A DNA stretch of 64,000 bases. Origin: Candidatus Thalassarchaeum betae (GTDB lineage: Archaea; Thermoplasmatota; Poseidoniia; Poseidoniales; Thalassarchaeaceae). The number at the start of each line of letters is the position of its first letter. Position 1 is the first letter of the stretch. Location of the stretch: positions 1 through 64,000 of the forward strand of contig PSPG01000006.1 of assembly GCA_003193925.1 (NCBI GenBank). The letters run 5' to 3'. Below are positions 23,130 through 27,884 of this stretch, piece by piece. Both the position numbers and the translations under genes were made by a program. The notes below the pieces were generated by a model. The model ran no database searches and was not told where the DNA came from. It worked only from the letters and a program-made list of their open reading frames with translations.

Positions 23130-26100
23130 GTGCCTCGCGCGAACGCCGCCGTAGCCGTACTGGCGATCCTGCTTCTCAGCGGGCCCGCTGCCATGGTCGG
23201 CGCTGCCGAAGACGACACTCCGACGACCTGCACCGTGCTGGTCGACTGGGATGCCGAGGAGCACTGGGACAGCGGCTGGAACATCACCTACGACGTCCTC
23301 CACCGATACCGCGTCGTCTTCGACCCGCCGTTCACCAACGGCAGCACGCCAAGCGCCCTCACCGTCGACGTACAGCACCTCCGCGACGGCGAGGTCATCG
23401 CCACCACCTCGAACGCCACAGTGGTGAACGCCGGCGGCGAGGTCGATGTCATCATCGACTCCGAGCCGGAGTTCAGGGACCGTATCTCGGTTTCGGTCGA
23501 GACCGGCGAGGCGAGCTGCTCGCGAGCCCTCGACATCACCAACTGGAACCAGCCAATCGCCGACCACGAGATAACCCGCGAGACCACGTGGTCGATGGAA
23601 GGCGCAGAGGACGGCCAGGGCATCGAGTTCGAGGGACGAGGCTGGCAGAAGAGGACCGGCAGCATCCTCGAGTCCAACGAGCTCGGCAACGGCACCTTGA
23701 CTCTTGATGCCATGAACGGCTCCGAGGGCCTGCAACTTGAACTCAACCTCGACAGGATCTGGCTCAACGAGACCTACGACGGCAACGAGCTTCTGCAGCA
23801 GGACTTCGAGATGAGCGGCAGCGGCTCGCTCTACCTCAACACCTCCGAACAGGGCGAGGAGGGCGAGAGCAGCGGCTTCGAGGTCCAGGTCCAGGTCAAC
23901 GACGTCTACGTACTGCGCTCCTGGTCCGGGGGCGAGCTGACCGAGAGGTTCAGGATCGACGGCACAGGGTGGCTCTCATTCAACGGAGGCGACAACAACA
24001 GCAGCGGCGGTGGTTTCGGCCAGTTGTCGACCTTCTACTTCGAGACTTGGGACGAGGACGACCGCAGGCGCCTTCAGCACCTCCAGATCGAGGCCAACGC
24101 CACGCTCCGCCTCAATGGGGGGGACAGAGACTACTTCTCCTTCGACCTCGATGAGTTCAGGATCCTCGAGCGCTGGGAGGACGGCATCCGGGAGCAGCAG
24201 CACTTCATGATACTGGGAGGCGGTGAATTCAGTTTTGAGATAAGGGACGAGTTCTTCCAGGTCGATGTAGAGGGCACCATCCCGGTGATACACTTCGAGA
24301 GCCAGGGCGGCGAGACCGTAGCGGAGACGATCCGAGTCGACGGCACCTACGACGGCGATGCCGCGGGCAGTTTCGGACTAATCAGAAGGATCGTGGACTC
24401 CGGCTCCCAGGAGAACGCGACCGGAGCCATGTTCGAGGTGGACAAGATCGAGAACGAGTTCTGGTTCAACGTCTCGGCCACCCCGATCGGGCCGATTACC
24501 GAGGAGTGGCAGGCAGAGCACAACCTGACCTACGAGTTCACCGTCCCGCAGACGGACTGGGGCAACCGCACCATCCGCTACCAATACATCGAGGACAACG
24601 GCACGGTGAACAACGAGTACCCCGAGCTCTCGCCGATCATCATGCAGGCTGAGGCTCCCGAGGCCGAGGTCATGTTCGAGAATCACATCTCGAGGGAGAC
24701 CGGCGCCGCCCCCGAGATGGTTCTCGTCGGTGACCGCTTCTCTCTTGTGGGTAACGACGCGATGATCCTCGCCATCCAGGTGACCGCCATCGTCGTCGAC
24801 GAGATGGACGGCCACACGGTCGAGGTCGCTGAGTGGCTGGGGGACTACGGCGAGAACAGCCACGCCTCGGGCAGCGTCGTCAATGAGGGCCCTCTGGCGG
24901 GCCTGCTCAACGAGATCCACCGCTGGGTAGAGATCCAATTGGGCGAGAACGGCTCAATGGGCAAGGACATCGCCTTCGTAGAGCACCAGATGGTGGACAG
25001 GGTCCTCTCGCCCTCGGTCATCACTGCCGAGGAGAACACACCGCCATCGATGATATCCATCGGCTTCCGGGAAGGCGGACTGCTGACTGAGGGCGACTCG
25101 GCGCACCTCGAGGTCGTCGTGGACGACTTCGACACCGATGTGACCGATGTCACCGTCGATCTCACTCAGATCGGCCTGGGGATAGTCGAGCTGTCAGATT
25201 CCGGTCTGCTCGGCGACCACACCATCCACGACGACATCTGGACCGCGCTGATTACCCACGACGGGCTGGAGCACGGCCTGATGGAAGTCACCGTGGGGAT
25301 GGAGGACATCTGGGTCTACGTCGAGGAGGAAGCCGCGCTCGAGGTGACCAACGCAGCTCCCAGGATGATGTCACTGGTCTTCACACCCGACTCGGTCAAG
25401 CGCGGCGATCCGGTCGGGGTGAGCGTCACCGCGGTCGACGGCCACGGAGTGGAGTCCGTTGGAATCGACTTGCTGAGCGCTGGCGGTGAGCTGACTTCGC
25501 TGTCCGAGTCCGACGGCGTCTGGAGCGGCCAGTTCACAGTGCCCTACGGAATGTCCCCCGGTGAGCGAACCATCCCCGTGCGAATCACCGACGGGGACGG
25601 AGGAACCACCATGGCAGTGCACGTGCATCCCAACGGGTATCCAGTGGAAGCTCCGACACTGACCATCGAGAACGAGGCCCCCTGGGTCAGCTCGGTGACC
25701 GTGATGAGGGACGGTGAGCAGGCCGAGACGATTCACGCGCCCGACGGGGGCGATCCGATCACGCACACGCTGGAGGCGACCATAGAGGACCCCGACGGCG
25801 TCTCCTCCGCCCAAGCGAGGATAGGCAGACTCGCTCCTATCGGGAACTCCGACAAGTGGCTTCTGATGGTCGATGACGGGAGCAGTGGCGACAGGGTCGC
25901 CGGCGATGGCGTCTACACCATCCAGTTCGATGTCCGAGCGAGTCTGCCCGAGGGCGACATAACGATCCAGATCCGCGCTACCGACACCTACCTGTCGATG
26001 ACCCCGGATGCTCTGCAGAGCCATATCCTACAGTTGGAGAAGATCGACTCCGGTGGAGGCGGAAGCAGTTGGATAAGCGACAACGCGACGACCTTGGTGT

Positions 26101-26177
26101 TCATCGCATTGGCTCTGCTGCTGGTAGTCGGAATCACAGCGGTCGCTGTGTCTTTGCGGAACTCTGAACTTGAGTAA
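23130..26177 (+). CDS. Large secreted surface protein with Ig-like domains and C-terminal membrane anchor
   Basis: 1015 residues from GTG 23130. There is a signal peptide (residues 1-25, AILLLSGPAAMVGAA), about 500 residues of beta-rich sequence with many N-glycosylation-type NxS/T sites, then Ig-like or cadherin-like repeats in the C-terminal 350 residues with recurring patterns such as DGVWSGQFTVP and GDGVYTIQFDV. A Gly/Ser linker (GGGGSSW) leads to one membrane helix (TLVFIALALLLVVGITAVAV) and a short cytoplasmic tail. It is probably a cell-surface adhesin or envelope protein with no enzymatic motif. Its stop codon directly abuts the displaced tRNA-Gly fragment at 26178. Confidence 0.8.
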   Translation: MPRANAAVAVLAILLLSGPAAMVGAAEDDTPTTCTVLVDWDAEEHWDSGWNITYDVLHRYRVVFDPPFTNGSTPSALTVDVQHLRDGEVIATTSNATVVNAGGEVDVIIDSEPEFRDRISVSVETGEASCSRALDITNWNQPIADHEITRETTWSMEGAEDGQGIEFEGRGWQKRTGSILESNELGNGTLTLDAMNGSEGLQLELNLDRIWLNETYDGNELLQQDFEMSGSGSLYLNTSEQGEEGESSGFEVQVQVNDVYVLRSWSGGELTERFRIDGTGWLSFNGGDNNSSGGGFGQLSTFYFETWDEDDRRRLQHLQIEANATLRLNGGDRDYFSFDLDEFRILERWEDGIREQQHFMILGGGEFSFEIRDEFFQVDVEGTIPVIHFESQGGETVAETIRVDGTYDGDAAGSFGLIRRIVDSGSQENATGAMFEVDKIENEFWFNVSATPIGPITEEWQAEHNLTYEFTVPQTDWGNRTIRYQYIEDNGTVNNEYPELSPIIMQAEAPEAEVMFENHISRETGAAPEMVLVGDRFSLVGNDAMILAIQVTAIVVDEMDGHTVEVAEWLGDYGENSHASGSVVNEGPLAGLLNEIHRWVEIQLGENGSMGKDIAFVEHQMVDRVLSPSVITAEENTPPSMISIGFREGGLLTEGDSAHLEVVVDDFDTDVTDVTVDLTQIGLGIVELSDSGLLGDHTIHDDIWTALITHDGLEHGLMEVTVGMEDIWVYVEEEAALEVTNAAPRMMSLVFTPDSVKRGDPVGVSVTAVDGHGVESVGIDLLSAGGELTSLSESDGVWSGQFTVPYGMSPGERTIPVRITDGDGGTTMAVHVHPNGYPVEAPTLTIENEAPWVSSVTVMRDGEQAETIHAPDGGDPITHTLEATIEDPDGVSSAQARIGRLAPIGNSDKWLLMVDDGSSGDRVAGDGVYTIQFDVRASLPEGDITIQIRATDTYLSMTPDALQSHILQLEKIDSGGGGSSWISDNATTLVFIALALLLVVGITAVAVSLRNSELE

Positions 26178-26204
26178 TGGTACGAGTGCCGGGATTTGAA
26201 CCCG
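26178..26204. repeat. Displaced tRNA-Gly 3' end (att-like direct repeat, left copy)
   Basis: 27 bp identical to 27810-27836. On the minus strand it spells the T-arm, the 3' acceptor strand, the discriminator A and CCA of the tRNA-Gly, then departs from the tRNA sequence. It begins on the base after the stop codon of the upstream surface-protein gene. Confidence 0.8.
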
Positions 26205-26339
26205 CATCGAGGCGGTCCCGTCGAGGCCATCCTGCCGGGCTACGCCGGCGCCATCCGTGACGCCCTCGAGGCCGGTGACCTCGACGCCGTGCGCCGGATG
26301 CTCGACCTCCTCGCAGCCCTGGGGGGTGAGCCGGCTTGA
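26178..26339 (+). pseudogene. C-terminal half-ORF completed only in the circular form
   Basis: An open frame without a start of its own runs from the repeat to a stop at 26337-26339 and encodes 53 residues ending in a helical segment (IRDALEAGDLDAVRRMLDLL). The same frame of the repeat is used by the right-end ORF starting at 27627. Joining the two at the repeat gives one 114-codon ORF. In the integrated state this half has no evident start or promoter. Confidence 0.5.
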
Positions 26340-26341
26340 CC

Positions 26342-26530
26342 TCAGTCCCTGACCATCGACTGGTTCAACCTACCATCTGGACCTATGACGACGTCGCCGA
26401 CCGGTCGCCATTCAAGTCTGATGAGGTCGTTGACCAGAGCGTCCAACACGGCCACCAGCTGCACGCTGTCCTCTTCCACCCCAAGGCCCCCTTTTTCGCG
26501 GGTTCCCGCAGTCACCGTCTTGTACTCCAT
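26342..26530 (-). CDS. DUF1737-like small protein
   Basis: 62 residues from the ATG at 26530. The start MEYKTVTAG, a central VAVLDALVNDLIRLEWRPVG and the end GPDGRLNQSMVRD match my recollection of the short DUF1737 pattern (YKVV, then helix, then GWxPLG, then QAMV), found in bacteria and phages with unknown function. It is convergent with the left half-ORF. A longer frame upstream to 26902 looks like non-coding extension. This is the best-supported protein inside the element. Confidence 0.6.
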   Translation of the reverse strand: MEYKTVTAGTREKGGLGVEEDSVQLVAVLDALVNDLIRLEWRPVGDVVIGPDGRLNQSMVRD

Positions 26531-26568
26531 CAAGCCGCACACTCTCTGTCGGTTGAAGGAGGCATCGC

Positions 26569-27147
26569 ATGAGCGAGGCTCTGGCAGCCTGGAACGGCTA
26601 CGTGTTCGACCGCCCACGATCGCCTCGCTGGGAGGGCGTCTATCCCGGCCCGGAGATGGCGCTGCGCCGGCTGCTGTGGGCTCGCCTGCTGTCGCAGGTC
26701 GACAAGCGACCCAGCAATCTGGCCGCTTATCCAGCCCTACACCAGGGAACGGCTCCAGGAGACCAGCACCATGAGCGCCAGGACTGCCAGACAACCCCCC
26801 AGGAGTCGCCCCAACGGGACGCTGTCCAAGCGGCTCGGTGGTTCGACATCGGTTCGGCCCGTCACAGGCGGCACCCCCATCATGCCACGCGGAGGCGGCC
26901 ACGGTCCTTCAGACCCACCCCTTACCTTGACCCTCATGAGAGAGCAACTGAGAACGCATCACCGAGGACCGAGAGGGGTACTCCAAATCCCGGCGTTCGC
27001 ACCCGAGCCAGGAGGTGGTCGGGTGAATCAGGTGGGAGTGAGGGATTAGCAAGTGCAACAACCGACAACCGACCGATGTCTATCGAGTCTATCGCGCACC
27101 AGCCCCGGGTCCCTCAGCCCCCAAGCCCCCGGGGCAACCGGCGATAG
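26569..27147 (+). CDS. Element ORF of uncertain extent, possible frameshift
   Basis: A strong ribosome-binding motif (GAAGGAGG) ends 7 nt before the ATG at 26569. The first 45 residues look protein-like (YVFDRPRSPRWEGVYPG, ALRRLLWARLLSQVDKRPS). After about 26713 the +1 frame looks more natural (DPAIWPLIQPYTRERLQETS, leading into an ORF that ends at 27049), whereas the original frame turns His/Arg/Pro-rich. This suggests a frameshift or sequencing error near 26706-26714. No family is recognised. A minus-strand ORF (26737-26937) with a hydrophobic C-terminal helix overlaps it and is a competing interpretation. Confidence 0.4.
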   Translation: MSEALAAWNGYVFDRPRSPRWEGVYPGPEMALRRLLWARLLSQVDKRPSNLAAYPALHQGTAPGDQHHERQDCQTTPQESPQRDAVQAARWFDIGSARHRRHPHHATRRRPRSFRPTPYLDPHERATENASPRTERGTPNPGVRTRARRWSGESGGSEGLASATTDNRPMSIESIAHQPRVPQPPSPRGNRR

Positions 27148-27160
27148 GAGGGAGGTTGGT

Positions 27161-27502
27161 ATGAGGATAGCGGCAGTCCCCCCGATCCGCTACCTGCGGA
27201 CGGACTCGACGGGGACCGCGATCGTCGGCCTGCCACCGCTGCGCATCACCCAGGAGTGCGCCTCGTGCCACGCCTGGCTCGATTTGTCCGCGTACCGCAC
27301 CCTGGCGGCTGCGTGCCGCTCGTGCGAGGCTGTTGAGGTGGCGGGCCGCATACAACCGACCGCCAGCCGACAAGCAGGAGGCGGCCCTGCCGATACGAGC
27401 CGGTCAAGGGCAGTTCAAAAGCCCTCCTCCGGGCGTCCCATCGCGTGCGCGGGTGAACCCCCCACTCAACCAGCCGTCAACCCGGCGTCAAAGGCACCTT
27501 AA
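27161..27502 (+). CDS. Small zinc-ribbon-like protein of the element
   Basis: 113 residues from the ATG at 27161, which has a very strong TAGGAGGGA motif 7 nt upstream (27145-27153). Residues about 30-60 hold two CxxC pairs (CASCHAWLDL and CRSC) 17 residues apart, a typical zinc-knuckle spacing. The C-terminal half is Pro/Ser/Ala-rich and low in structure. Such short zinc-ribbon proteins are common on phages and plasmids of high-GC bacteria. Function is unknown. Confidence 0.5.
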   Translation: MRIAAVPPIRYLRTDSTGTAIVGLPPLRITQECASCHAWLDLSAYRTLAAACRSCEAVEVAGRIQPTASRQAGGGPADTSRSRAVQKPSSGRPIACAGEPPTQPAVNPASKAP

Positions 27503-27626
27503 GGCGAAAAACGGGACAAACTCAGCGATTTCGAGGACCGTGGCGCGAAGTCCATAGGCCCACACTGTCCCCGGTCCGACTCGACACCGCCAGCCGCGGT
27601 CATCCGAAAGCAGGAGAACGACGAAC

Positions 27627-27863
27627 ATGACCCCGACTGATGACTCACACGACCTCACGCCGCCGATCACCTACGCCGCCTGCGAGTCGAGCGTGGGCGA
27701 TGTCCTGGTAGCCAACTTCCACCCGGTCGGCAGCGACGGACGCAGCCGCCCGCTCTGGTTGAATCGGGGTGCCCTGCACCGCGGCGCGGCCACTGCCGTG
27801 GCAGGCGGTTGGTACGAGTGCCGGGATTTGAACCCGGGTTCAGGCGTTGGCAACGCCCGGTGA
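27627..27863 (+). CDS. N-terminal half-ORF running into the tRNA-Gly gene
   Basis: 78 residues from the ATG at 27627, preceded by AGGAG (27612-27616). The first 61 codons lie inside the element (for example VGDVLVANFHPVGSDG); the last 17 are an antisense reading of the tRNA. When the repeat at 27810 is joined to its copy at 26178, the frame continues into the left half-ORF, giving 114 residues. Integration therefore replaces its natural C terminus. Function is unrecognised. Confidence 0.45.
   Translation: MTPTDDSHDLTPPITYAACESSVGDVLVANFHPVGSDGRSRPLWLNRGALHRGAATAVAGGWYECRDLNPGSGVGNAR
27810..27836. repeat. att-like direct repeat, right copy, within tRNA-Gly
   Basis: Identical 27-bp partner of 26178-26204, covering the T-arm to CCA part of the intact tRNA-Gly on the minus strand. 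Confidence 0.8.
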
Positions 27864-27884
27864 TAACCACTACACTACACTCGT
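27810..27884 (-). tRNA. tRNA-Gly(GCC), CCA encoded
   Basis: Read on the minus strand, 7-bp acceptor arms (ACGAGTG / CACTCGT) pair fully. The anticodon stem GGGCG/CGCCT encloses loop TTGCCAA with anticodon GCC, and the T-arm CCGGG/CCCGG has loop TTCAAAT. The discriminator is A and CCA is encoded (27810-27812 complement). The gene is complete, as expected for a tRNA rebuilt by an integrating element. Confidence 0.95.

Follow-up and report, generated by a model that had tools for sequence, protein, structure and literature searches.

Small integrated elements at tRNA genes

Suicidal integrases are partitioned within their own gene on integration and have been found only in archaea (PMC8371274). 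In the SSV-type elements that encode them, the attP site lies inside the integrase gene, the core is the 3′ end of a tRNA gene, and the N- and C-terminal halves of the gene come to rest at the two borders of the element (PMC8371274, PMC3293823). The unit described here shares this layout. It differs in that its split gene is no recognizable recombinase and is far too short to be one, in that no integrase is encoded at all, and in its size of only 1.6 kb.

A second likeness is to the cis-mobilizable elements (CIMEs) and integrase-less islands, which keep attL and attR, lack genes for integration or transfer and accrete in tandem at one target (PMC5704250). One criterion of a CIME, the presence of both att sites without recombinase or transfer genes, is satisfied by the unit. 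CIMEs are bacterial decay products of ICEs or IMEs, whereas the unit is archaeal and has a small, recurrent backbone of its own, and descent from an ICE or IME has not been shown.

Within the host order, Poseidoniales, the Charybdis elements are also small and some are integrated next to tRNA genes (PMC12324425). They measure about 4.6 kb, encode a Gp3 protein of about 230 amino acids and methyltransferases, and carry an integrase in every integrated case (PMC12324425); the unit has none of these. At 1,632 bp and without an integrase it fails the size and integrase criteria of this group. The double Greek-key Gp3 (~230 aa) is ruled out by length, the longest stop-free stretch on the circle being 196 codons, although no sequence comparison with Gp3 was made. 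The cryptic integrated elements of Thaumarchaeota are likewise short, occur in marine archaea and hold few genes, but even the smallest on record, at 2.6 kb, encodes an integrase (PMC6563490). A further case is an insertion of 1,868 bp at a tRNA-Thr gene of Ca. Caldiarchaeum, which is also below 2 kb, lies at an archaeal tRNA gene and is flanked by a tRNA repeat. Unlike the unit, it contains an 813-bp ORF thought to encode a recombinase, and no gene spans its repeat (PMC3293823). No published description of the unit itself was found in the open-licence literature, to which the search was confined.

The insertion site

The window, that is, the whole stretch of 64,000 nucleotides that was analysed, comes from a 1.48-Mb draft genome in 23 contigs. 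The host belongs to Ca. Thalassarchaeaceae, order Poseidoniales, of the marine Group II archaea. An intact tRNA-Gly(GCC) gene, the integration target, occupies positions 27810–27884 on the minus strand. Its 27-base 3′ end (27810–27836; TGGTACGAGTGCCGGGATTTGAACCCG on the plus strand), reaching from the T-arm to the encoded CCA, has an exact second copy at 26178–26204. The two copies have the same orientation and lie 1632 bp apart from start to start, which delimits a unit of 1,632 bp. An exact repeat of 27 bp is far beyond chance. The right att copy is the 3′ end of the intact tRNA, and the left att copy is a displaced 3′ end that starts directly after the TAA of a host gene on the plus strand (23130–26177), which encodes a secreted Ig-like protein of 1015 aa. 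The coordinates given for this repeat in the preliminary description are confirmed. Integration by a tyrosine recombinase at a tRNA 3′ end is established in the literature to give this arrangement (PMC8371274).

Downstream of the 3′ ends of the genome's 41 further distinct tRNAs, scanned up to 20 kb or to the contig end where this came sooner, no comparable repeat is present except at two tandem tRNA pairs. Within the unit itself, near the middle (26984–27003), the tRNA-Gly 3′ end has a partial counterpart in inverted orientation with 85% complementarity, which is perhaps a trace of another core.

The predicted empty site, a host stop codon with tRNA-Gly directly behind it, is present in six genomes of Ca. 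Thalassarchaeaceae. In the one that belongs to the same genus (G005), the homologue of the 1015-aa gene has TGA as its stop codon and adjoins the tRNA with a gap of 0 bp. The other five belong to other genera of the family, and there the homologues adjoin the tRNA with gaps of 3 bp (G020), 2 bp (G022), 41 bp (G015), 18 bp (G017) and 18 bp (G250). Since these relatives retain the empty site, the 1,632-bp unit is an insertion in the source lineage. Site-specific insertion into tRNA-Gly, as first proposed, thus finds support in the empty sites, in the exactness of the core repeat and in the foreign content between the copies. In a further genome of the same genus (G009; L035:3883-4203), a second 23-bp copy of the Gly core is followed by a run of 297 undetermined bases (N) and then by tRNA-Gly; this run may be inferred to represent an unassembled insertion at the same site.

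A gene that runs through the core

When the unit is closed to a circle through one copy of the core, a reading frame becomes apparent that cannot be seen in the linear sequence and is an addition to the first reading. It starts at 27627, passes in frame through the core and continues into 26205–26339, giving 114 codons without a stop. In the integrated state, the N-terminal half, termed module II (27627–27809, plus strand), ends at the right core, and the C-terminal half (26178–26339, plus strand) begins with the left core. The requirement that attP lie inside a partitioned gene, known from suicidal-integrase elements, is met by the unit. A further segment, module I (26569–26733, plus strand), represents the beginning of the split gene, with GGAGG before its ATG, and is 64% identical over 25 aa to a sequence on contig C43 of G250 (z 21.7). 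In G250:C43, module I directly precedes module II. In the window, the two are about 0.9 kb apart with other ORFs between them, so the gene may itself be broken here.

The joined protein was compared with 318 genomes of the order. It matches an intact ORF that runs across a tRNA-Pro core (G251:C10:24358-24612, E 4e-9) and a half that follows a core (G312:C22, E 2.5e-7). The core in G251 is the 3′ end of a tRNA-Pro(TGG) that opens contig C9. To keep the shared tRNA sequence from creating the match, the stretches on either side of the core were compared separately, against 2000 shuffles. The pre-core part scores z 13.7 against G251, and the post-core part 10.1 and 15.3 against G251 and G312, with none of the 2000 shuffles reaching the score. 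Beyond the core, similarity of the C half extends to contig C18 of the source genome as well, the range over the three comparisons being z 10–15, again with 0 of 2000 shuffles. The GC content by codon position is 0.75/0.55/0.82 in the joined frame and 0.62/0.42/0.84 in host genes, the third position being the richest. What is new at this locus is the frame of 114 codons joined across the core; relatives encode the same protein in frames that cross tRNA-Pro(TGG) cores or reach up to them.

Searches of Pfam, PHROG, NCBIfam, PADLOC and PDB with the split gene gave only chance-level matches, and a structure model of the G251 protein (pLDDT 51) is too poor for a fold search. A resemblance of module II to the start of a Bud32-like kinase, in 14 of 32 residues, has an E of 6e-4 per genome; with 318 genomes searched, and with no such resemblance in module II of G251 (z 1.4), it is treated as chance. 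Alignment A2 held no run of columns conserved enough for a collection scan.

Other genes of the unit

Next to the C-terminal half lies a small DUF1737-like gene of 62 aa on the minus strand (26342–26530), the DNA of which is 77–90% identical over 225–278 bp in six relatives. The relative of its protein in G018 matches DUF1737 at E 0.01, which is below the cut-off. Two further ORFs are regarded as cargo. One, on the minus strand (26737–26883), encodes 48 aa with a single membrane span and is 91% identical in DNA to positions 1338–1486 of contig C20 of the same genome. The other, on the plus strand (27161–27502), is supported by its codon-position GC and shows a zinc-ribbon-like CxxC…CxxC pattern without a family match.

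Searches of Pfam, PHROGs, NCBIfam and PADLOC gave no convincing family for any ORF of the unit and revealed no recombinase, phage or defence family. The absence of a visible integrase, remarked on from the sequence alone, holds at this level also. The comparison with plasmid and virus sets that had been proposed produced no accepted relative: phage and plasmid records have no DNA match to the unit, a phage protein search with the joined frame found nothing, and IMG/VR scans with the joined frame, the zinc-ribbon ORF, the DUF1737-like protein and alignment A3 yielded no relative. The Gly core has no exact occurrence in IMG/VR in the one exact-pattern scan that was run. Phage-protein matches of the zinc-ribbon ORF reached only E 0.04–0.4 and were discarded, as were IMG/VR matches to the Pro core, which are phage tRNA-Met genes only.

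Related units and the question of decay

Related units are found at a different tRNA. In two genomes of one genus (G250 and G251), two cores stand about 920 bp apart between a NUDIX gene and tRNA-Pro(TGG). The interval holds N and C parts of the split gene, mostly decayed, in att-gene-att units arranged as a head-to-tail tandem; in G251, one intact frame remains beside the decayed tandem unit of ~920 bp. Many relatives have only the N half left next to tRNA-Pro, in the same frame as the split gene and usually with stops or frame shifts further upstream. In other relatives, the NUDIX gene is followed directly by tRNA-Pro without a scar, and the source genome's own tRNA-Pro site is empty. Between the NUDIX gene and tRNA-Pro, a conserved hairpin of 60 nt (GGTGGCAGATGGCGAGCG...CGAGACCCTGAAAGAAAACG...GCCATCTACC) was also noted in three species of one genus (L097:1065-1125, L049:11700-11765, and L093 near 1780), with no Rfam match where this was searched.

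A block consisting of the end of the C half, the DUF1737-like gene, a ribosome-binding site and the first codons of module I occurs in G238 and G310 in an order identical to that of the window, with DNA 88–90% identical. This conservation indicates that the pieces belong together. They thus form a backbone common to different genera, fragments of which persist elsewhere in the family. In the source genome, a decayed tRNA-core-like sequence with the C half of the split gene lies on contig C18 (5790–5945). In this region (L173:5740-5945), the core and C half follow a short repeat, CTCGTGAGTCCGGAAGCTCAGGGGTTTAGATCCACGAG, of which contig C20 has three exact or near-exact copies within its first 4 kb. 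Tiny genes are present at both places, which resemble insertion hot spots.

It could be argued that the unit is the decayed remnant of a larger integrase-bearing element, such as a provirus, a plasmid or a Charybdis-like element, which suffered an internal deletion and kept its two att sites as a CIME-like relic. This is the strongest of the alternatives, although it remains unlikely. The tRNA-Pro units are visibly decayed, the family has integrase-bearing loci beside tRNA-Glu, tRNA-Ala, tRNA-Gln and tRNA-Arg, and integrase-bearing elements of Poseidoniales that integrate at tRNA genes have been published (PMC12324425). However, the window copy has an undamaged split frame and an exact core, and units of similarly small size are found at another tRNA and in a second genus. 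No fragments of integrase or structural genes remain in the unit, and no larger relative carrying the split gene was found among the 318 genomes. The preliminary description had left the choice between a small element or satellite served by an integrase in trans and the remains of a larger one. The former is now favoured, since the att-spanning frame is intact and the tRNA-Pro units are themselves only about 0.9 kb, while the integrase in trans is still no more than an inference. Derivation of the unit from a larger ancestor is not excluded. Moreover, the relatives come mostly from draft genomes and all of those found are decayed or cut by contig ends, for which reason the family as a whole could have arisen by decay from a larger ancestor with an integrase.

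The source of the recombinase

The source genome has one tyrosine recombinase (PF00589) gene only, located on contig C4 (position 23551) and not in the unit. Strong matches of the same kind are present in 135 of 148 genomes of relatives; as nearly every relative has such a gene, it is taken to be the host's XerA-like enzyme. Because the unit has no tyrosine recombinase, the enzyme must, by inference, come in trans. The layout of pNOB8-type elements, in which an intact integrase gene adjoins the rebuilt tRNA, is not met. The split gene is absent from all 12 integrase-bearing loci of relatives that were examined, and no helper with the same gene was found among these.

As the XerA-like enzyme is the only tyrosine recombinase found in the genome and is so widely kept, the unit might integrate through it, in the manner of elements that use dif sites and Xer enzymes. 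The support for this is weak: the core is a tRNA 3′ end, from two different tRNAs in the family, and not a single dif-like site, and tRNA 3′ ends are typical of integrases borne by elements (PMC8371274).

Still less can be said for the view that the split gene is a highly reduced suicidal integrase of the SSV type, which is very unlikely. An attP inside a gene partitioned by integration is a hallmark of suicidal integrases (PMC8371274), but the joined product of ~114–165 aa leaves no room for a catalytic domain of ~180 residues, and it has no Pfam, NCBIfam or PHROG match. The criterion that the split gene be a tyrosine recombinase (PF16795 or the R..KxxR..Y signature) is not fulfilled, and none of the 318 genomes of the order has a PF16795 match above cut-off. 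A chimeric assembly, or a segmentally duplicated tRNA end, is scarcely credible even for a draft in 23 contigs with a single copy of the element: the empty sites lie at exactly the point predicted, homologues are confined to the same archaeal family, the codon pattern is host-like and the internal content is unrelated to the host locus.

Other observations concern tRNA loci in the same genomes. Contig C18 of the source genome ends exactly at the CCA of tRNA-Gln(CTG) (L201:9722-9797), and contig C1 starts with the same 91 bases (L200:1-91), an assembly break at a tRNA 3′ end of the kind to be expected from an inserted element that varies within the population. G022 has an integrase gene close to tRNA-Gln(CTG) (L227). 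On contig C15 of G307 (L232:10305-10381), the 22 bases at the 3′ end of tRNA-Arg(TCG) are repeated exactly about 6.6 kb downstream, near an integrase gene; this locus is a conventional integrated element.

Proposed mode of integration

The unit is probably a native, very small, non-autonomous integrated element of Ca. Thalassarchaeaceae, which is mobilized in trans and has its attP in a non-integrase gene that integration splits. In the proposed scheme, a tyrosine recombinase supplied by a virus, a plasmid or an integrase-bearing element, or less likely by the XerA-like gene of the host, would recombine attP with the 27-bp 3′ end of tRNA-Gly(GCC). The recombination would rebuild the tRNA and leave the old 3′ end at the far side of the unit. 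The predicted attP junction is ...GCAGGCGGT-core-CATCGAGGCGG..., and that of the empty attB is TAA-core-GGTTCAGGCG. As attP would lie inside a small gene of the element, with the reading frame passing through the tRNA-derived core, integration would cut this gene, placing the N-terminal half beside the tRNA and the C-terminal half beside the host gene. The whole gene would exist only on the circle or in a head-to-tail tandem. By inference, synthesis of its product would be limited to the extrachromosomal form, or to a tandem, and the product would serve the element there. The trans-acting enzyme, the circular form, the expression and function of the split gene and current mobility are likewise inferred.

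It may further be postulated, tentatively and with more doubt than confidence, that a family of integrase-free archaeal elements of 1–2 kb uses an attP within a non-recombinase gene as a built-in switch. The free circle, or a tandem, would be the only source of the protein, which would act on excision, copying or transfer, and integration would turn it off.

Implications for the Poseidoniales

In the archaeal literature surveyed, the only genes described as being cut by the integration of their own element are those of suicidal integrases. At this locus a gene of another kind is cut and no integrase is present; hence, the split is not a by-product of an enzyme gene cutting itself. The unit also offers a very small system for studying the minimal needs of an integrating element. 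Units of this kind easily escape notice, since they break up contigs and since searches depend on integrase or virus hallmark genes. The unit and the scars at tRNA-Pro and tRNA-Gly point to a layer of tiny mobile DNA in an archaeal group that ranks among the ocean's most abundant.
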